DNA of 56,714 bases from Opitutaceae bacterium (lineage in GTDB: Bacteria > Verrucomicrobiota > Verrucomicrobiia > Opitutales > Opitutaceae). Shown piece by piece: positions 5,893 to 23,337 of the stretch. Location: NCBI GenBank assembly GCA_027485815.1, contig JAIXQE010000101.1, positions 1-56,714 on the forward strand, read 5' to 3'. Both the position numbers and the translations under genes were made by a program. The first letter of the stretch is position 1, and every line of letters begins with the position of its first letter. The notes under the pieces were generated by a model that worked only from the letters and a program-made list of their open reading frames with translations, ran no database searches and was not told where the DNA came from.

Positions 5893-9773
<3,881 letters not shown>

Positions 9774-9806
9774 CGGGGGCGGCGGGCGGAGGGGCGACTC
9801 ACGGGC

Positions 9807-11117
9807 TCAGGGGCGGGTCGCGGAGCCATTCCCGCCGCTGCCGGCGGGCGCGGCGGCAGCGGGCAGGACGGGGGCGCCAGGGGCGGTGAGGACAGGCTGG
9901 TTCACGGAGCGCGCGAGGGAACCGTCCTTGAGGCCGCTCTGGCCGAGGACCACGACGGGGGTGCCGACCTCGAAGCCGGACAGAGCCTCGACGTGCTCCG
10001 GATCCTCGTAACCGGCGGCCAGCTTGCGCTTCACCACCCGGTCGTTCACCAGCGCAAAGACGTACCGCTCGCCGCCCTCGTACACCACCGCGCGCTTGGC
10101 GATGAGCACCGCCTCGGGCCGGGTGTCGGTGATGACGCGCACGTTGACGAAAAGCCCCGGCGGCAGGTCCCCCGGACGTTCACCCCGGACTCCCACCGTG
10201 ACCTTGAAGGTGCCGCTCTTCGGATCGATGACGGGGCTGATGCGCTTCACCCAGCCGCGGAAGGTGCGGTCGGGCAGGAATTCGGACGTGACGACCGCCG
10301 GCTGGTCCGCGGCGACGACCGGCAGGTAGCGCCCGGGGACGAACACCTTGGCCACGGTCTCATCGAGCTTCACCAGCGAGAACAGGCGGCTGTTGGCGGA
10401 AACCCGGGCCCCGACCTGCGCCTCCCGCGAGGCGACGACCCCGGCGAAGGGCGCGCGCACCGTGGTGTAGGCGTGCCGCAGGCGGGCGCGCTCGTACCGC
10501 AGGCGGGCCAGCTCGAGGGCGTTCTTCTGGGTCTCGAAGTCCTGCGCGTTGACCAGCTTCCGCGCGAACAGGTCCTGGGTACGGGCGAAGTTGCGCTCGA
10601 GCTGGTCGAAGTTCGCGCGGCTCTCCTCCATGTCCACCCGCAGCTCCCGGTCCTCGATCTTCAGCAGGGCCTCGCCCTCCTGCACCACCTTGCCCTCCTC
10701 CACGAGGATCGCCTCCACCTGGCCCGTGGTCTGCGGGTAGACGTCGACCATCGCCTCCGTCTCCAGGGTGGTGTTGAAGGTGAGGAACGCGGAAATGGGC
10801 CCGCGCCGCACGAGCGCGGTCTCCACCGGCACCATCTCGGCGGCGGTCTGCCGCTGCCGCTCCTTCTCCGCCTCGCTGGAACGCCGGCCCGAGGAGTTGG
10901 AACCGGAACCGGGCGGGCGTGCGCCCTCCTTCGCTCCGGCCGCGGGCGTGGCCGGAGCCGCCTTGGCGGCGGGAGTCCCCGGGGCGGCCGCAGCCGCCTT
11001 GGGTGCCACGGGGGCCGGAGCCGCCGGCGGCGGGGTGGGACTGCAGGCCGCCAAGCCCAGCGCGAGCAGCGGCGCGGTCAGGCGGAGACCGGAACGGGAG
11101 TCGAAGGGGCGGGACAC
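9807..11117 (-). CDS. RND efflux periplasmic adaptor (membrane fusion) lipoprotein
   Basis: 436 residues from the GTG at 11117. This start gives a short signal with lipobox LGLAAC, followed by an Ala/Pro-rich linker, a barrel-sandwich half (VYPQTTGQVEAILVEEGKVVQEGEALLKIEDREL), an alpha-helical hairpin (residues near ANFDQLERNFARTQDLFARKLV), the second half-motif (VRAPFAGVVASREAQVGARVSANSRLF), and beta-barrel and membrane-proximal domains. It would bridge the RND pumps and an outer-membrane channel. An ATG at 11231 opens a longer frame, but that would place the operator-like palindrome at 11201-11218 inside the gene and bury the signal. It is the first gene of the adaptor-RND1-RND2 operon. Confidence 0.9.
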   Translation of the reverse strand: MSRPFDSRSGLRLTAPLLALGLAACSPTPPPAAPAPVAPKAAAAAPGTPAAKAAPATPAAGAKEGARPPGSGSNSSGRRSSEAEKERQRQTAAEMVPVETALVRRGPISAFLTFNTTLETEAMVDVYPQTTGQVEAILVEEGKVVQEGEALLKIEDRELRVDMEESRANFDQLERNFARTQDLFARKLVNAQDFETQKNALELARLRYERARLRHAYTTVRAPFAGVVASREAQVGARVSANSRLFSLVKLDETVAKVFVPGRYLPVVAADQPAVVTSEFLPDRTFRGWVKRISPVIDPKSGTFKVTVGVRGERPGDLPPGLFVNVRVITDTRPEAVLIAKRAVVYEGGERYVFALVNDRVVKRKLAAGYEDPEHVEALSGFEVGTPVVVLGQSGLKDGSLARSVNQPVLTAPGAPVLPAAAAPAGSGGNGSATRP

Positions 11118-11200
11118 AGGGGAAAGGGGGTGAACCGGACTCGGACCAAGACGTCCGGCCGGGAATCCGGATTTCACGCCGCGCGCCGCCCGGGCGCAAG

Positions 11201-11218
11201 ATTTCGTCGTGACGAAAT
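11201..11218. promoter_or_regulatory. Operator-like palindrome upstream of the RND efflux operon
   Basis: ATTTCGTC-GT-GACGAAAT is a perfect 8-bp inverted repeat with a 2-base centre, 84 bases before the GTG of the adaptor gene. It is the only AT-containing palindrome in a 211-base gap that is otherwise GC-rich. Dyads of this size are typical binding sites of TetR- or MarR-type repressors of efflux operons (family knowledge). No regulator gene is adjacent, so the binding protein is unknown. Confidence 0.45.
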
Positions 11219-11328
11219 TGTCATCCTCCACCCGGGAACGGGCGAACGGAGGGCGGGGAGAGACGGGACCGACATCGCGTGCAGCGAGACGATGCGGGCG
11301 CGCCGGCGTTACCCGAAAACCGCGTCCC

Positions 11329-13587
11329 TCAGAAAGTGACGCGGTAGGAGGCGCCGAATTCCCGCTCGGCGCCGAGCCGGTCGTGCGACGCGAGCAGGTC
11401 CCGGTCGAGGGCGTTGCGGACGGTCAGGCCGAAGGAGTGGGTGCGGTTGGCCGCCCGGAGGCTGTAGCTGGCGCCGAGGTGGACGAGGCCGTAGCCGGGG
11501 TATTCGAGGCCGAAGCGCTGCCGGTCGGCGTAGTAGGCGGTGAAGTCCGACAGGTAGGCCCAGCTGCCGCTGAGGCTAAGCCCGCGCCACCGGCCCTCGG
11601 GAAACGTGTAGGCGGCGGACAGGGCGGCGTTGTAGGGCGGGAAGCGGGAGAGCCGGCGGCCGACCTCCTCCGGCAGGTCGGGCGAGGCGGTCGTGATCGC
11701 GCGCACGTGGGACCCAACGAAGGAGACCGAGACCGCGGGCGTGACCCGCCAGCGGCCCTCGAGCTTGCCGCCGGTGAACCGCTCCTCCCCCGCCGCGACC
11801 AGCTGCGGCTGGGTGTGGTTCGCGTCCTGGAGCGGATCGCCGTAGAGCGGGTTGCGGCGCGAGATGTCGCGGTTGATGAAGGTGAACGCCGCCGCGGTGA
11901 GGTCGACGCGGCCCTCGGCCAGGCGCGCCTTGCCGCCCGCCTCGTAGCCGAAGGTGGTCTCGTTGCCCTGGATGTGCCCGGTGCGGGCGTCGACGCGCGT
12001 GGAGGGGTTGAAGGCGGTGCTGGTGGTGGCGAACAGGAGCAGCCGGCTCGGCACCGCCTGCTGGTTGACCCCGAGGTGCCAGGTGAGCTCGTCCACCCCG
12101 TCCCGGACCCGCGCGAGGTTGGCCGCGACCCCGGGGCGGCGGTCGGTGACGCGCAGGCCGACGCGGTCGTGGCGGAGGCCGCCGGTGAGGACGGTCCGGC
12201 CGCGGGCGAGGCTCATCCGCTCGCTGACCTCCAGCGCGGTGAAGCGGGTGCGCTCCGCGCGGTCCGCCAGCACGCGGTCGAAGCCCGCCCGGTCGTAGGG
12301 AACGGTGGTGTAATCGGGGGCGAAGGGGTTGAAGGTGCGCACCGTCGCGGGGAGCGCGTTGCGGGCGGCGACCGGCAGCGCGCGCTCGTCGCGGCGGTTG
12401 TCCGCCTCCGTGTGGCTGAGGGCGAGGAGCAGCTTGTGCTCCGTGCCCGCGAGGGAGAACCGCGCGGTGGCGTCGGCGCGGGCGACGCGCGCCCACTGCG
12501 GCTGCTCGCTGTGGATCGGCTCGCGGAGGCCCTCGAAGCGCCCGGTCGCGAGGTTGAGCAGGCCGGTGGTGAACCGGTCCTGCTCGATCCGCCGCCACCA
12601 CGCCTCGGCGCCGGCGCGCACGATCACCTGCGGGTGCACCCGCGCCTCGAGGATCGCCCCCGCGACCACGCTGCGGCGGCGCACGCCGGCGTAGGGACCC
12701 TGCGCGTTGAAGCCCGCCAGCGGCCGATAGGGACCCACGATCCGCGCGCCCGGCGTCACCCGGTACTCCGGAATCCCCGCGGCGGGCGTCGCGTGCAACT
12801 GCGAGAAATCCACCGCGACCAGGGTGCTCGCGTCCGGCCCGTGCCGCCACGTCACCGCCCCGCTGACCGCGCGCGTCTCCGCCAGCGCATGCTGTTCGGG
12901 ACCCGCCTTGCGGCTCCAGTCCGCCGCGACGCGGTGCCACGCCTTCTGGGGGACGGCCAAGCCGTGCCATTCCACGGCCGCGGACTGCCGGTCGAGCGAG
13001 CCGACCGCGGCGGAAAAGGTGCGGCTCGGGGTGGTCCGGGGGCGGTTGGTCCAGTAATCCTGGATCCCGCCCGGCGCGCCGCGGCCCAGCACGGGCACGA
13101 GCGCACCCTGGATGACGAACGTGCGGCCGGTGTTGAGGAGGTCGATGCCGCCCTGGCGCACGAAGCCGTTGCTCAGCAGCGGGGTCGGGAACCCGCGCAG
13201 GCCGACGCGGCTGTCGCCGGTCGCAAGCTCCACCGGCGACGGGTTCGCGATCAGGCCCATCTCGGCGAGCAATTCCGCCCCGGCCGGGTCCTCCTCGAGC
13301 GTCTCCGGGGAAAGCAGGTCGCTCGCGAACACGGGATCGCGCAACTGGGACTCGGGCGAGCCCAGGGCCGCCGGCTCGACGCCGCGCTCGGGCAGGCGCT
13401 CCCGCACCCCCATGGGCGCCAGCAGCACGGGCGCCTCCGCGGCCGCGCCGGCGACCTTGCCCGCGGCGGCCGGCGGGGCGGCGGGCGCCACCTGGGCCCC
13501 GACGGAGCCGGCAGCCGCGCACGCCACCGCCAGCCCGACGGTGCGGGCGAGGCGAACGGCGCTCAGGCGACGCGACGGCATCGGCAA
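11329..13587 (-). CDS. TonB-dependent outer-membrane receptor
   Basis: 752 residues. A signal peptide (about residues 1-31, ending VGAQ) is followed by an Ala/Pro-rich segment, a plug domain (LLAEMGLIANPSPVELATGDSRVGLRGF through GAPGGIQDYWTNRP) and a long beta-barrel with alternating aromatic strands, ending in a C-terminal phenylalanine (GASYRVTF), as outer-membrane barrels do. It imports a ligand using TonB energy. The ligand is not evident. It starts 19 bases after the DUF1080 gene on the same strand, so they are likely co-transcribed, which hints at a carbohydrate-related or surface role. No TonB/ExbBD genes are in the window. Confidence 0.88.
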   Translation of the reverse strand: MPMPSRRLSAVRLARTVGLAVACAAAGSVGAQVAPAAPPAAAGKVAGAAAEAPVLLAPMGVRERLPERGVEPAALGSPESQLRDPVFASDLLSPETLEEDPAGAELLAEMGLIANPSPVELATGDSRVGLRGFPTPLLSNGFVRQGGIDLLNTGRTFVIQGALVPVLGRGAPGGIQDYWTNRPRTTPSRTFSAAVGSLDRQSAAVEWHGLAVPQKAWHRVAADWSRKAGPEQHALAETRAVSGAVTWRHGPDASTLVAVDFSQLHATPAAGIPEYRVTPGARIVGPYRPLAGFNAQGPYAGVRRRSVVAGAILEARVHPQVIVRAGAEAWWRRIEQDRFTTGLLNLATGRFEGLREPIHSEQPQWARVARADATARFSLAGTEHKLLLALSHTEADNRRDERALPVAARNALPATVRTFNPFAPDYTTVPYDRAGFDRVLADRAERTRFTALEVSERMSLARGRTVLTGGLRHDRVGLRVTDRRPGVAANLARVRDGVDELTWHLGVNQQAVPSRLLLFATTSTAFNPSTRVDARTGHIQGNETTFGYEAGGKARLAEGRVDLTAAAFTFINRDISRRNPLYGDPLQDANHTQPQLVAAGEERFTGGKLEGRWRVTPAVSVSFVGSHVRAITTASPDLPEEVGRRLSRFPPYNAALSAAYTFPEGRWRGLSLSGSWAYLSDFTAYYADRQRFGLEYPGYGLVHLGASYSLRAANRTHSFGLTVRNALDRDLLASHDRLGAEREFGASYRVTF

Positions 13588-13606
13588 CCGGTCCCGCGCG
13601 GGCGGC

Positions 13607-14389
13607 TCAGTTGTCGCGGGAGAACTGGGTGTTCGCCCGCACCAGGTCGAGTTCCTTGATCCAGATGTTCCGGTACCGGACGTCGTGGCCCTCGCATTGC
13701 AGCTTCAGGCCGCCGGGCGAGTCGGTGATCCCCTTGCCGCCGTCGTTGCCCCCGTCGATCCCCGAGTTGGCGCCGCCCCAGACCTGGTTGATCTCCTGGT
13801 TCGCGTGGATCTTCACGCCGTTGATATACATCGTCACGCGCGCCTTCTCGACCAGCTTGCCGTCCTTGAAGCGCGCCGCGCGGAACTGGAGGTCGTACGC
13901 GTTCCACTGGCGCAGGCCCTTGTAGAGGAAGTAGGGGGACTCCGTCTCGTTGATCACCGACCCCATCCCGTGCTTGGTCGCGTCGCCGTCCTGGATCTGG
14001 ATCTCGTAGCGGTTCTGCAGGTACACCCCGCTGTTGCCGCCCTCGTTCATCACGCAAAATTCCACGTGGAGCCGGAAGTCGCGGTACGCCTTCTTGGTCA
14101 CGATGTCGGCGGACCCGTAGCGGCCCTTGGGCGCGTTCGGATCATCGGTCTGCACCACCGTGCCGCGGTCCACCGGATCGGGCACGATCTTCCACTTGAT
14201 CGGAAGCGAGGAGGCGAAGCGGGGGCCCTGCCAGTAGGTCCACTTGGCGTCGAGCATCTCGCGGGAACCGTCGAGGATGACCTCGGCGCCCGGGAGGGGC
14301 GGCGCGCCGACGCCGACCGCGCCGTGCGCCGCGGCGGCGAGCAGGAAGGGCAGGAGGCGGAGGAGAGCGGACGGGGCGGGGGTTTTCAC
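13607..14389 (-). CDS. DUF1080 (3-keto-disaccharide hydrolase family) exported protein
   Basis: 260 residues from a GTG at 14389, chosen because it gives a clean signal peptide (VKTPAPSALLRLLPFLLAAAAHG); the frame extends upstream to 14503 but overlaps the neighbouring hydrolase gene. The mature part shows the concanavalin-like DUF1080 pattern: DAKWTYWQGPRF, SADIVTKKAYRDFRLHVEFCV, NEGGNSGVYLQNRYEIQI, and a closing VRYRNIWIKEL. Members of this family are abundant in Verrucomicrobia and Planctomycetes; some act on 3-keto-glycosides, most are uncharacterised. It lies directly in front of the TonB-dependent receptor. Confidence 0.88.
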   Translation of the reverse strand: MKTPAPSALLRLLPFLLAAAAHGAVGVGAPPLPGAEVILDGSREMLDAKWTYWQGPRFASSLPIKWKIVPDPVDRGTVVQTDDPNAPKGRYGSADIVTKKAYRDFRLHVEFCVMNEGGNSGVYLQNRYEIQIQDGDATKHGMGSVINETESPYFLYKGLRQWNAYDLQFRAARFKDGKLVEKARVTMYINGVKIHANQEINQVWGGANSGIDGGNDGGKGITDSPGGLKLQCEGHDVRYRNIWIKELDLVRANTQFSRDN

Positions 14390-19349: not shown

Positions 19350-19592
19350 ATGAGCCACTCCGCCCTCGACGCCCTCCAGGCTCGCCTCGCCGCCGATCCC
19401 GCCTTCGCCGCCCAGTTCCGGGCCGCCGCCTCGCTTGACGCCGCCATCGCCGTCGCCCGCGCGCACGGCCTCACCCTCGACGCCGCCATGTTCCAGAATC
19501 GCCCGCTTGGCGCGGGGGAACTCGACGGCGTCGCCGGCGGCGCGGGAATCGACCTCACTCTCGACCCCAAGATTTGCCTCGTTCCCCAATGA
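19350..19592 (+). CDS. lanA1: Nif11-type lanthipeptide precursor 1
   Basis: 80 residues. A Nif11-like leader (residues 1-64: MSHSALDALQARLAADPAFA onward, with the amphipathic FRAAASLDAAIAVARAHGLT helix) ends in GELDGVAGG, a double-glycine protease site. The predicted core is AGIDLTLDPKICLVPQ (residues 65-80). It has one Thr (core 6) and one Cys (core 12) and no Ser, so exactly one ring, a methyllanthionine between them, is possible. Its last bases overlap the ATG of precursor 2 (ATGA). The adjacent LanM is the likely modifying enzyme. Leader cleavage and export genes are not present nearby. Confidence 0.88.
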   Translation: MSHSALDALQARLAADPAFAAQFRAAASLDAAIAVARAHGLTLDAAMFQNRPLGAGELDGVAGGAGIDLTLDPKICLVPQ

Positions 19593-19831
19593 GCCACTCC
19601 GCCCTCCAAGCCCTTCAGGCCCGCCTCGCGGCCGATCCCGCCTTCGCCGCCCAGTTCCGGGCCGCCGCCTCGCTTGACGCCGCCATCGCTGTCGCCCGCG
19701 CGCACGGCCTGACCCTCGACGCCACCATGTTCCAGAACCGCCCCCTCGGCGCGGGCGAACTCGACGGCGTCGCCGGCGGCGCCGGGTTCGACACCGTCGC
19801 CAACCCGCGGATGTGCGAAACTCCCTGGTGA
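19589..19831 (+). CDS. lanA2: Nif11-type lanthipeptide precursor 2
   Basis: 80 residues, a tandem copy of precursor 1. The leader differs only at residue 7 (Asp to Gln) and residue 46 (Ala to Thr). It ends VAGG, giving the core AGFDTVANPRMCETPW. The two cores share A1, G2, D4, P9, C12 and P15, and otherwise differ. Thr at core 5 or 14 could react with Cys 12, so the ring could close in either direction. The ATG at 19589 overlaps the stop of precursor 1 by 4 bases; an earlier in-frame ATG at 19574 is rejected because the MSHSAL start matches precursor 1. LanM starts 28 bases after the stop. Confidence 0.88.
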   Translation: MSHSALQALQARLAADPAFAAQFRAAASLDAAIAVARAHGLTLDATMFQNRPLGAGELDGVAGGAGFDTVANPRMCETPW

Positions 19832-19858
19832 GCACGTCGCCGCGGAGCTGAAGCCACC

Positions 19859-22690
19859 TTGCCGCCGGTATCCGCCTCCGGCCCCGCGCCGGCGGAGGAC
19901 GAAGCCTGGCTCGCCGGGCGCGTCGCCCCGCTCTGGGAAGCCTCCGCCGCGGCTGGCGGGCGGGCCCTCCCGCCCTTCGCACACGTCGCCGCCCCCCTCG
20001 TCGCCGCCGCCTGGCGGGACCTCGCGGCCGCGCTGCCTCCCGCCTGGCTCGCGCGGCTCGAACCAACGGCGCGGGACGACCTGCGCGCCCACGCCCTCAC
20101 CCGGCTCTGCGCCGCCCTCGCCCCCGCGCTGCACGCGGACTGGTTCCGCGACCGGCCCGCGGGCGAGGCCCTGTTTCTGCGCCTGGCCCCCGCCGCGGCC
20201 ATCCCGACGGCCGGCGTGCACCGGTACGCCGCCTATTGCCGCACCCTCGCGGAGCCGGCCGGCTGGGCCGCTTGGCTCGACCGCCATCCCGCCGCGCCGG
20301 ACCTGATCGCCGTCCTGCGGGACCACTGGCGGGACGCCACACGCGAACTGCTCCAGCGCCTCGCGGGCGACGCCCCGGCCCTCGCGCGGACGTGGGGCCT
20401 CGGTCCGGAGACCCGCCTGCTCCGCATCGAACCCGGCGCCGGCGATCCGCACGCCGGCGGCCGCACCGTCGTCCGGCTGACCTTCGCCACCGCCGGCGGC
20501 GAACGACGCCTCGCCTACAAGCCCCGCGACCTGCGCCTCGACGCGCGCTGGTCCCACCTGCTGGCCGCCGCCTTCGACGGCGCCGCAACGCCGCCCGCCG
20601 CGGCCGAGGTGCTGCCGGTGGGCGCCTCCCACGGCTACGTGGCGTGGATCGAGCCCGCCCCGCCCGCCGATCCGCCCGCTTACTTCCGGCAGGCCGGGAG
20701 GCTGCTGGCGTTGGCCCAGTTGACCGGCCTGAGCGACCTGCATCACGAAAACATCGTGCCCACCGCCGCCGGGCCCGTCGCGATCGACCTGGAAACCCTG
20801 TTCACGCCTCCCCAAGAGGCGCCGGCGGATCCGGAACTGCAACCCGTGCTCGACTCGGTCCTGCACGTCGGGCTGCTGCCGGTGCTGGTCGTGGACCGCG
20901 GGGGCGCGGGCTGGTTCGACCCGAGCGGCCTTGGCCATGATCCCGGCGCACGCGCTGCGCCGGCCTGGCGGTACGTCAACACCGATGCCATGGTGCCCGG
21001 GCCGGCCGGAAGGAGTGGCGCGACCGGATCGCGTCCCGCGGCGCCGCTGGCGGAGCACCTGCCGGACCTGCTCGCGGGCTACCGGGAAGCGTGGCGGGCG
21101 TGGCGCGAACCCGCCCGACGGGTGCGGCTGGCGGCGGAACTGGCCTCGTGCCGCGGGCTCGTCCGGCGGCGAATCGTGCGCCCCACGCGGGTTTACGCCG
21201 CCCTGCTCGCGGAGGCGACGGCCCCGGCCGCCCTGCGCACGCCGACGGTCCGGACGGCGATCTTCCAGCGCCTCGCCGCGACCCGCTCCCCGGGTCCACT
21301 CGTCGGGGAGGAGATCGTAGCCCTCGCCCGGCACGACATCCCCCGCTTCACCGCGATCGTCGGGGAGGAGCACGATCCGGGACTCGCCCGGGCGGAGGCG
21401 CGCCTCGCCGGCGGCGACGAGACGTGGCTGGCGTGGCAGGAGGCCATCGCCCGCGCCCTGGGCACGGCCCGCGCGCCTGCGGCCTGGCCGCCGGTCGCCG
21501 CTCCCGCCGCCGCCGCCCAGGCGGTGCGCGACGAACTCCTCGCCCGCTACACCCGCAATCCCGCCGGTCGGCCCTGCTGGCTCGGCCGAGGCGCCCATCC
21601 CCGGGGGGATCTGCTCCTGCCCGAGGTCCCGGGGGAACGCTGGAGCGACGGCGAGCCCGGCCTCGCCGCGTTTCTCACCCTGTGGGTGCGGCACCACCCG
21701 GAGGATACGGCCGCCCGGACCGTCCTCGCCGCCACGTTGGCCGGCCTGCGCACGCGGTGGGCGTCCGACTCCGCCCGCGCGGTGCTCGCCCGCAGCGGGC
21801 CAGGTTACACGGGGCTGGGAGGCATCCTGCGCTGGCAGGACTGGCTGGCCGCCACGGAGGCGGACGGCGACTGGGCCGCCGGGCGCGACGCGTGGCTCTC
21901 CTCGCTGACCCCGGAGAACCTGCCGGCGGACCACGATGCCGGGTTCCTCACGGGCCTCTCCGGCTTGGCGGGTCCGCTGGCGCGCCGGGAACACGCGGTG
22001 CCCTGTCCACGACGACGGGCGCTGCTTGCCTGGCTCGGCGAACGCTTGCGGGCCGCCCAGGGCCCGGACGGCGGGTGGCGGGCCCCGAACCTTTCCCGAC
22101 CCCTCGCCGGACTCTCACACGGCGCCAGCGGCATCGGCCTCGCCTTGATTGAGATCGGCGTCGCCCTCGGGGACGAAACGTTGATCGACGCCGGGGCGGC
22201 CGGCTTCGCCTACGAGGAGACGATCTTCGACGCCGCGACCGGCAACTGGCGGGATCTTCGTCCGGACGTGCCGGCGGGGCCCGGGATGGCCTCCTGGTGC
22301 CACGGCGCGCCCGGCATCGGCCTCGCGCGCCTCCGGGCATTGCAGGTCGCGCCCGAGCATCGCGACGCCCCCCGGTGGCGCGACGCCCTCGACCGCGCGC
22401 TGCGGCACACCGCGGCCCAACCCCTCGGGCCCCACGACTTCCTGTGCTGCGGCAACCTGGGGCGCGCGTGGATCCTGCGCACCGCCGGCGCCGCCCTCGC
22501 CGCGCCCGTTTGGATCGCGGAGGCGGACCGGATCACGGTGGCCACCACCGCCCGCCCGGGACCGCCGGGCTTCAGCCACCCCACCGGCCTCCCGCCGCTC
22601 GGATTCCACGTCGGACTCGCCGGGATCGGACTCGCGTGGCTCCAGCACGGACGCGCGGCGCCGGACCCGATCGACGCCCTGCTGCTCTGA
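19859..22690 (+). CDS. lanM: Class II lanthipeptide synthetase LanM (ProcM-like zinc site)
   Basis: 943 residues from a TTG; the frame opens after the stop at 19829-19831, and no ATG or GTG lies near its 5' end. GGAG at 19844-19847 can serve as the ribosome site. The dehydratase domain shows K221 in LAYKPRDLRLD, D293LHHEN and D310LETL, kinase-like residues that phosphorylate Ser/Thr before elimination. The cyclase domain is alpha/alpha-barrel with GLSHGASGIGL, WC814HGAPGIGL, C863C864GNLG and FHVGLAGIGL. Canonical LanC has Cys-Cys-His zinc ligands; here the third is Cys, as in the substrate-tolerant ProcM of the prochlorosin system. It lies 28 bases after precursor 2. No LanT or protease gene is seen. 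Confidence 0.93.
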   Translation: MPPVSASGPAPAEDEAWLAGRVAPLWEASAAAGGRALPPFAHVAAPLVAAAWRDLAAALPPAWLARLEPTARDDLRAHALTRLCAALAPALHADWFRDRPAGEALFLRLAPAAAIPTAGVHRYAAYCRTLAEPAGWAAWLDRHPAAPDLIAVLRDHWRDATRELLQRLAGDAPALARTWGLGPETRLLRIEPGAGDPHAGGRTVVRLTFATAGGERRLAYKPRDLRLDARWSHLLAAAFDGAATPPAAAEVLPVGASHGYVAWIEPAPPADPPAYFRQAGRLLALAQLTGLSDLHHENIVPTAAGPVAIDLETLFTPPQEAPADPELQPVLDSVLHVGLLPVLVVDRGGAGWFDPSGLGHDPGARAAPAWRYVNTDAMVPGPAGRSGATGSRPAAPLAEHLPDLLAGYREAWRAWREPARRVRLAAELASCRGLVRRRIVRPTRVYAALLAEATAPAALRTPTVRTAIFQRLAATRSPGPLVGEEIVALARHDIPRFTAIVGEEHDPGLARAEARLAGGDETWLAWQEAIARALGTARAPAAWPPVAAPAAAAQAVRDELLARYTRNPAGRPCWLGRGAHPRGDLLLPEVPGERWSDGEPGLAAFLTLWVRHHPEDTAARTVLAATLAGLRTRWASDSARAVLARSGPGYTGLGGILRWQDWLAATEADGDWAAGRDAWLSSLTPENLPADHDAGFLTGLSGLAGPLARREHAVPCPRRRALLAWLGERLRAAQGPDGGWRAPNLSRPLAGLSHGASGIGLALIEIGVALGDETLIDAGAAGFAYEETIFDAATGNWRDLRPDVPAGPGMASWCHGAPGIGLARLRALQVAPEHRDAPRWRDALDRALRHTAAQPLGPHDFLCCGNLGRAWILRTAGAALAAPVWIAEADRITVATTARPGPPGFSHPTGLPPLGFHVGLAGIGLAWLQHGRAAPDPIDALLL

Positions 22691-22780: not shown

Positions 22781-23041
22781 CACCAAAGGCACAGAGGGCA
22801 CTGGGCGTGAACCACGCTGGCGGTGGCGTCCATAGAAGCCGCGCAGACTTGAGGGCGAGCGCTCGGAACGGAGGGCTCCGGACCAAGGCAGCGAGGCCTT
22901 CTTGCCCCTACAGCTCCGCGGTCGGAAGCACCTCGGCTCGAAGCCCCGCCTTGGCGGCTCCCGCCCCTCCGGGCCCGCGGCGTCTATGGACGCCACGCAC
23001 GGCCCCGACCGCGGATGCAACCCTTTGCGCCTTTTGCGGCC
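22781..23041. repeat. Tandem palindromic intergenic repeat, copy 1
   Basis: First of two copies of a roughly 261-bp unit repeated at a 296-bp period without net insertion or deletion over its body. Each unit has inverted ends: the 5' side reads like accaaaggcacagaggg and the 3' side is the imperfect complement (ccctttgcgccttttgcggcc). Just inside both ends lies a palindrome, GGCGTCCATRGACGCC; the 5' one is degraded in this copy. Its layout resembles a non-autonomous mobile element (MITE) or a REP-type element. Motifs of the CACAAAGGCACAAAGGG type are common intergenic repeats in environmental bacteria (recollection, not checked). Confidence 0.75.
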
Positions 23042-23076: not shown

Positions 23077-23337
23077 ACAAAAGGCTCAAAGGGCCCCTGG
23101 GCGTGGACCACGCTGATGGTGGCGTCCATAGACGCCGCGGAGGCTTCAGGGCGAGCGCTCGGAACGGAGGGCTGCGGACCAAGGCAGCGAGGCCTTCTTG
23201 CCCGAAAAGCTCCGCGGTCGGAAGCACCTCGGCTAGAACCCCCGTCTTGGCGGCTCCTGCCCCTCCGGGCCCGCGGCGTCCATGGACGCCACGCACGGCC
23301 CCGACCGCGGATGCAACCCTTTGCGCCTTGTGCGGCC
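23077..23337. repeat. Tandem palindromic intergenic repeat, copy 2
   Basis: Second copy at +296. The palindrome is intact at both ends (GGCGTCCATAGACGCC near 23121-23136 and GGCGTCCATGGACGCC near 23275-23290). The outer arms match each other's complement over about 70 bases, starting gccacaaaaggctcaaaggg on the left. The middle contains a smaller hairpin, AAGGC-AGCGAG-GCCTT. No transposase is nearby. Confidence 0.75.

Follow-up and report, generated by a model that had tools for sequence, protein, structure and literature searches.

The 56,714-nt stretch analyzed here (the window, by which we mean its full length) is contig JAIXQE010000101.1 of an Opitutaceae bacterium (assembly GCA_027485815.1) and makes up the entire contig C190 of a 4.08-Mb, 232-contig assembly that is 97.2% complete. 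Its forward strand carries two genes for Nif11-type precursor peptides followed by a gene for a class II lanthipeptide synthetase (LanM) of CCG type. The features of this locus are as follows.

19350–19592, + strand: precursor peptide 1, 80 aa, with a Nif11-type leader, a GG motif, and the core AGIDLTLDPKICLVPQ (Pfam Nif11, TIGR03798, translation).
19542–19589, + strand: predicted 16-aa core of precursor 1, AGIDLTLDPKICLVPQ, with one Thr (T70) and one Cys (C76); cleavage predicted from the GG motif consensus.
19589–19831, + strand: precursor peptide 2, 80 aa, with a leader as in precursor 1 and the core AGFDTVANPRMCETPW (Pfam Nif11, TIGR03798, translation).
19781–19828, + strand: predicted 16-aa core of precursor 2, AGFDTVANPRMCETPW, with T69, C76, and T78; cleavage predicted from the GG motif consensus.
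19859–22690, + strand: LanM, class II lanthipeptide synthetase of CCG type, 943 aa, with a TTG start whose exact position is uncertain (TIGR03897, DUF4135 plus LANC_like).
20297–21355, + strand: dehydratase (DUF4135) domain of LanM, residues 147–499 (Pfam).
21644–22648, + strand: cyclase (LanC-like) domain of LanM, LANC_like residues 596–930 (Pfam).
22298–22300, + strand: codon of Cys814 (WCHG), a zinc ligand by alignment.
22445–22450, + strand: codons of Cys863 and Cys864 (CCG), ProcM-type zinc ligands by alignment.

The precursor genes overlap through an ATGA, in which the start of precursor 2 lies on the stop of precursor 1. Both products exceed the Pfam Nif11 cut-off of 23.8 bits (precursor 1, 33.8 bits, E 4.1e-8; precursor 2, 35.3 bits, E 1.4e-8); against the NCBIfam model leader_Nif11 (TIGR03798, cut-off 32.3 bits), precursor 1 passes with 33.0 bits and precursor 2 falls slightly below with 31.8. 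Both leaders terminate in L-G-A-G-E-L-D-G-V-A-G-G and thereby carry L(−12), E(−8), and L(−7) ahead of the GG, the double-Gly/C39 recognition consensus quoted in PMC6363468 (here and below, cited articles are drawn on in part). The original prediction of two Nif11-type double-glycine precursors before a LanM is therefore borne out by the Pfam scores and the GELDGVAGG leader ends. Thr and Cys follow the GG in both cores, with one Cys in each, so at most one thioether could form per peptide. The accompanying check for the loss of one water needs a correction: Each core has a single Cys, but the two Thr in the precursor 2 core would allow up to two waters to be lost there.

The 943-aa frame is a class II lanthipeptide synthetase, combining a DUF4135 domain with a LanC-like cyclase and scoring 375.8 bits against TIGR03897 (cut-off 304). 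In an alignment of seven LanMs, residues D196, H198, K221, D293, H295, N298, D310, and E312 of the dehydratase domain are invariant. C814, C863, and C864 lie exactly at the predicted positions; the CCG triplet is common to the window LanM and 8 of 16 other aligned LanMs, with CHG in six and neither motif in two. The G+C content per codon position is 0.80/0.62/0.90. An AlphaFold2 model of moderate quality (mean predicted local distance difference test score, 69.9) finds LicM2 and CylM as its best PDB fold matches; because the whole-protein template modeling score to LicM2 is just 0.47, the model serves as fold confirmation only. Nif11 leaders and a CCG-type LanM thus occur together in the minimal two-peptide form proposed at the outset.

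Divergence between the two precursors is concentrated in the core: 2 of the 66 N-terminal residues differ, as opposed to 10 of the 14 C-terminal residues. We counted substitutions by the Nei–Gojobori method, taking the first 66 codons as leader and the last 14 as core. The leader part shows 11 synonymous (Sd) and 3 nonsynonymous (Nd) differences, for a ratio of nonsynonymous to synonymous rates (dN/dS) of 0.088, and the core part 4 and 17, for a dN/dS of 1.45; the contrast is significant with two copies only (Fisher P = 0.0012). A conserved leader joined to a hypervariable core, as in prochlorosin systems, is thus observed, in a comparison limited to two copies. The synonymous distance between the leaders (0.24) resembles that of the upstream gene between the window species and its congener G010 (0.25).

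Exactly two precursors and one LanM in an operon-like row would also be expected of a two-component lantibiotic, in which both cores act jointly as alpha and beta peptides. We regard this as very improbable: Both cores are short, contain one Cys, and are homologous rather than of two different types—the residues D, P, C, and P are common to both past residue 66—and the window LanM is of CCG type, whereas PMC10027976 assigns two-component LanMs to the CHG type.

The expectation that other leaders would be found elsewhere in the genome did not hold for this assembly. A Nif11 profile search returned two places, both in the window; precursor 1 as query recovered only itself and its copy, with four weaker matches of which the best (E 0.10) lies within a 943-aa frame; and a profile search for NHLP leaders gave none up to E 10. 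Genome-wide, there is one LanC-like place and one C39 peptidase place. The sole C39 match is an NHLM exporter (HlyD–ABC1–ABC2; contig C1:19064–24734), unlinked to the LanM contig. Its ABC1 (TIGR03796, 963.1 bits; cut-off 853.3) and ABC2 (TIGR03797, 789.1 bits; cut-off 709.4) both score over the cut-offs, and the C39 catalytic motifs, read by eye, are present. As no NHLP precursor was found in the genome for it to serve, we take the Nif11 precursors to be its presumed substrates.

From these genes we infer leader recognition, dehydration, ring formation, cleavage, and export, as well as any bioactivity. LanM would bind the Nif11 leader, dehydrate core Thr, and join it to the sole Cys of each peptide in a single thioether ring: from T70 to C76 in peptide 1, and most likely from T69 to C76 in peptide 2, with T78 as the alternative. 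The C39 domain of the unlinked exporter would cut the modified peptides after GG, and the exporter would release peptides of 16 residues, probably with one ring each. The two precursor genes probably arose by tandem duplication, with the leader held and the core diversified thereafter.

Comparison with related genomes, all of them drafts, places the locus in a setting of loss. The upstream FG-GAP-like gene (named by eye) has a counterpart with 72–97% identity in 13 of the 26 other genomes of the genus, and in 8 of these 13 the downstream PVC-type gene (TIGR02604) lies within 1.5 kb of it. Between both flanking genes, G010 (89% complete) retains the initial precursor codons, ~82 LanM-matching codons (64% identity), and a LanM tail that reads through into the next gene. 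A 38-bp LanM tail persists at the syntenic site in G019 and G009, with a score matched by 0 of 1,000 dinucleotide shuffles. The precursor locus is thus deleted or fossil in the nearest species. A candidate LanM trace in G007 was rejected, its score being reached by 130 of 1,000 such shuffles.

The exporter site tells a parallel story in G010: HlyD and ABC1 lack a match of their own, only residues 10–154 and 700–967 of ABC2 remain, and the neighboring DMT-type gene is down to 14 residues, whereas the genes on both sides stand at 95–96%. Neither an exporter cassette nor an exporter tail was seen at the syntenic site in G019, G012, G007, or G021. Our main evidence that exporter and synthetase belong to one pathway is that internal deletions have gutted the two unlinked loci in one and the same genome. 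This pathway seems to be lost from the sister species. In a tree of the upstream gene, the window species, G010, G019, G009, and G007 group together at 100/100, with G007 and G010 as sisters (100/98) and the window species outermost of the five (85/88). By common descent, the pathway probably dates to the ancestor of this five-species group and would be intact only in the window species. Across the group, the locus is found in intact, gutted, fossil, and empty states, a natural series for following the gain and loss of an entire pathway.

The same setting could mean that the window locus is itself a relic being lost, its frames still open and its product no longer made or exported, as in the sister species. 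Consistent with this are the remnants in G010, G019, and G009 and the lack of a trace in G007; the half-length HlyD and shortened LanM of the window genome; and the rarity of the parts, as this is the only one of 27 genus genomes whose NHLM ABC1 passes the cut-off and a full LanM is found only here and in G117 among 142 relatives. Against this reading stand a LanM frame that stays open over 943 codons, shows a coding GC pattern, and retains the catalytic residues; purifying selection on the leader since the duplication (dN/dS 0.088); and an exporter whose ABC1 and ABC2 pass their cut-offs and whose C39 motifs are present by eye. We therefore consider decay to a relic unlikely.

We judge it likely that the window locus encodes a minimal class II lanthipeptide pathway, because of the family matches, the catalytic and zinc residues, and the LicM2/CylM fold matches, combined with the leader/core contrast, the C39 consensus, the sole C39 exporter, the joint remnants in G010, and the single cluster that unites these components in G491 (see below). 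Several observations weigh against this assignment. The dN/dS contrast of the precursors is based on just two copies. The LanM is short, filling 902 of 1,004 core alignment columns (990 in the G491 LanM), with N-terminal stretches missing, and among the 142 relatives the nearest full-length LanM, in G117, belongs to another family and is too far to gauge selection on LanM. The NHLM HlyD has 202 aa (contig C1:24126–24734; L022:9127–9735), scores 102.3 bits against TIGR03794, below the cut-off of 156.2, and lacks the long middle part of the 418-aa G491 HlyD. Finally, the LanM remnant in G010 has a synonymous distance of 0.71, vs. 0.25 and 0.37 for the flanks and 0.33 and 0.40 for the exporter remnant, a poor fit with simple vertical descent.

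LanM genes are sparse around the window species. Among the 142 relatives, the LanM query matched in three, namely G117, G010 (as a fragment), and this genome itself; of 372 genomes sampled evenly across the order, it matched in four (this genome, G701, G117, and G491); across the phylum, the LanM profile matched 19 of 387 genomes at E 0.001 and exceeded the cut-off in two, this genome and G456. The G456 LanM (C6:238298–239764) is in pieces, one of which has a TAA inside the matched stretch. In two of the Opitutales genomes, a CCG-type LanM is accompanied by two NHLP-type leaders:

G117, locus L020: CCG-type LanM, 8905–12162; NHLP-type leaders, 13131–13846.
G701, locus L152: CCG-type LanM, 8324–11617; NHLP-type leaders, 6619–7344.

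At 48 and 46 bits, the leaders of G117 fall below the cut-off of 50.9. These pairings contrast with PMC10027976, where NHLP leaders are tied to CHG LanMs within that study's own data set.

Nif11 proteins occur in 9 of the 142 relatives, this genome counted. We rejected those of the eight others as orthologous systems, as none of these genomes has a LanM match; their Nif11 neighborhoods were viewed in all eight, over at most 1.5 kb per side in four of them. In G041, two Nif11 loci adjoin proteins that resemble radical SAM enzymes by eye. A further candidate locus for a ribosomally synthesized and post-translationally modified peptide in the genus is L146 (G023 contig C25, 8252–14501), where an NHLM ABC1-like exporter of 536 bits, below the cut-off, lies next to a protein of 481 aa and a 54-aa peptide bearing KGG and two Cys close to its end.

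Phylogenetic trees place the window LanM on the CCG side. In a 17-row tree this position is supported at 100/99, and the window LanM groups with those of Mycetohabitans, S. medicae, and Streptomyces NBC_00829 at 96/93. A tree without G491 and minus four long rows gives that grouping at 94/96 and no starred set with the window LanM. With G491 and G701 added and the Oscillospiraceae and S. roseoverticillatus rows left out, the window, G491, Mycetohabitans rhizoxinica, Streptomyces NBC_00829, and Sinorhizobium medicae form a set at 98/99, outside which lies the Nif11-associated CCG LanM of Nostoc. Of eight LanM loci from a scan of genome contigs, the partial-match ones of Acanthopleuribacter (L056) and Achromobacter (L057) are in no tree. 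Because the window branch is ~2.6 long, this clade placement is provisional: The window LanM would join four LanMs that are associated with leaders of Nif11 type, and in trees whose rows include no ProcM or SyncM its descent from the ProcM clade is conjectural. The PDB LanM matches are LicM2 and CylM only.

The leader links of these four LanMs differ in kind. Leaders over the cut-off stand beside LanM in G491 and M. rhizoxinica; the peptide beside the CCG LanM of Streptomyces NBC_00829 is below both Nif11 cut-offs (22.2/23.8 and 24/32.3 bits); and S. medicae holds N11P and LanM in one genome according to PMC2887384. The CCG motif is lost from the aligned S. medicae LanM. Altered zinc sites in the LanMs of S. 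medicae and Nostoc UHCC 0926 (L132, L131) suggest that cyclase activity was lost in both.

These associations bear on the possibility that the window Nif11 proteins are not precursors at all and merely chance neighbors of LanM, as the presence of Nif11 proteins in eight other relatives with no LanM match might imply. The overlapping genes, the GG motif with its C39 consensus, Cys and Thr in both cores, and diversification confined to the core all argue otherwise, as do the LanMs of the same clade that adjoin Nif11-type leaders (G491, M. rhizoxinica, and, below the cut-offs, Streptomyces NBC_00829) and the co-occurrence reported for S. medicae. Chance adjacency is thus extremely improbable.

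Between LanM and the next gene lies a 246-nt direct repeat (22796–23041 and 23092–23337), with copies 92% identical that bear inverted arms of 21–22 nt around GGCGTCCATAGA.

The larger relative G491, of the same order and another family, unites HlyD, ABC1, ABC2, a CCG LanM, and Nif11 leaders in one cluster, with all scores over the cut-offs (HlyD, 264.3; ABC1, 1072.8; ABC2, 873.8; LanM by TIGR03897, 699.4 bits). In 1,570,710 bases, a profile built without G491 sequences found 13 frames with Nif11 leaders, all 13 over the TIGR03798 cut-off; reversed frames gave none with the full profile. An extra 369 kb added no leader, so that 13 is a lower bound from 1,939,719 scanned bases of about 2.6 Mb. 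The leaders are spread over six contigs. The LanM contig carries 6 of the 13, including one that forms the C-terminal part of a 203-aa protein. Mean pairwise identity is 41% among the leaders and 16% among the cores, vs. 17% for shuffled cores (means that include 1 of 13 rows, L157, split at a later GG). By eye, 10 of the 13 cores contain Cys; most are longer than the window cores, and many are multi-Cys. No second LanM was found in 1.94 Mb, and the genome search gave a single LanM, with two of seven candidates scored. G491 therefore fits the prochlorosin gene pattern of one LanM, scattered leaders, and unrelated cores, from which promiscuity of its LanM may be predicted.

The 203-aa protein (contig C43; 18577–19188) follows an ECF (extracytoplasmic function) sigma factor gene (L151:17693–18580). 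Its N-terminal half is anti-sigma-like by eye, and its C-terminal part is a full Nif11 leader (TIGR03798, 49.3 bits) with GG and a short core; the protein may be a regulator that carries its own export leader.

What the window holds is a real, ordinary-sized Nif11/CCG class II lanthipeptide locus in Opitutales. Three points make it of interest: the leader/core contrast between its two copies, an unlinked exporter co-lost with the synthetase in a sister species, and a relative of prochlorosin scale within the order. We tentatively entertain, as a possibility somewhat short of even, that Opitutales hold a non-cyanobacterial Nif11–CCG LanM lineage with prochlorosin-type combinatorial biosynthesis—here, one promiscuous LanM with many dispersed leaders and unrelated cores—full-sized in G491 and, in the window, minimal and collapsing, with exporter and synthetase lost together. 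The prochlorosin logic attributed to the window has better support in this phylum from G491 than from the window itself.

Multi-leader Nif11 clusters outside cyanobacteria are already known: A Lachnospiraceae cluster has nine precursors with Nif11-type leaders (PMC6363468), and Pelotomaculum thermopropionicum has seven N11P and 12 NHLP precursors (PMC2887384). Victivallis vadensis ("chlamydia group") is one of the genomes for which PMC2887384 names NHLP transport clusters. In the portions drawn on, PMC10027976 (2023) associates N11P lanthipeptides only with CCG LanMs and describes marine cyanobacterial prochlorosin-like clusters as the only example yet of a highly promiscuous CCG LanM with diverse cores, adding a candidate system in freshwater cyanobacteria. 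Parts of the open-access literature searched for a verrucomicrobial Nif11–LanM system named none. An Opitutales genome that combines a single CCG LanM with 13 or more dispersed Nif11 leaders would extend the dispersed form to another phylum.

Prochlorosins are described as having a Nif11 leader with a -D/EELExxxGG-like end, a variable core, and a CCG-type LanM (PMC10783134). The window shares the leader type, the variable core, and the CCG LanM with the prochlorosin/ProcM system of Prochlorococcus MIT9313 and with SyncM of Synechococcus; unlike them, it has just two precursors, both linked and with a single Cys in each core, as well as an unlinked exporter and a host of another phylum. Prochlorosin systems have many, mostly dispersed precursors per LanM, whereas the window genome has two, adjacent to each other; G491 shows that gene pattern. 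M. rhizoxinica pBRH01 and Nostoc sp. ATCC 53789 resemble the window in having a Nif11 leader beside a CCG LanM, although the M. rhizoxinica locus has a YcaO gene alongside. M. rhizoxinica, Streptomyces NBC_00829, S. medicae, and Nostoc belong to other phyla, with LanM identities to the window of at most 31% over the tree columns. Of the NHLM export cassette (TIGR03794/03796/03797; Haft et al. 2010), the window genome shares ABC1 with its C39 domain and ABC2, both over the cut-offs; it differs in an exporter off-contig from its presumed substrates and in a half-length HlyD below the cut-off. A further counterpart is G491: Both genomes combine a CCG LanM of one clade with Nif11 leaders and an NHLM exporter, and G491 differs in its complete exporter and its at least 13 leaders on six contigs.

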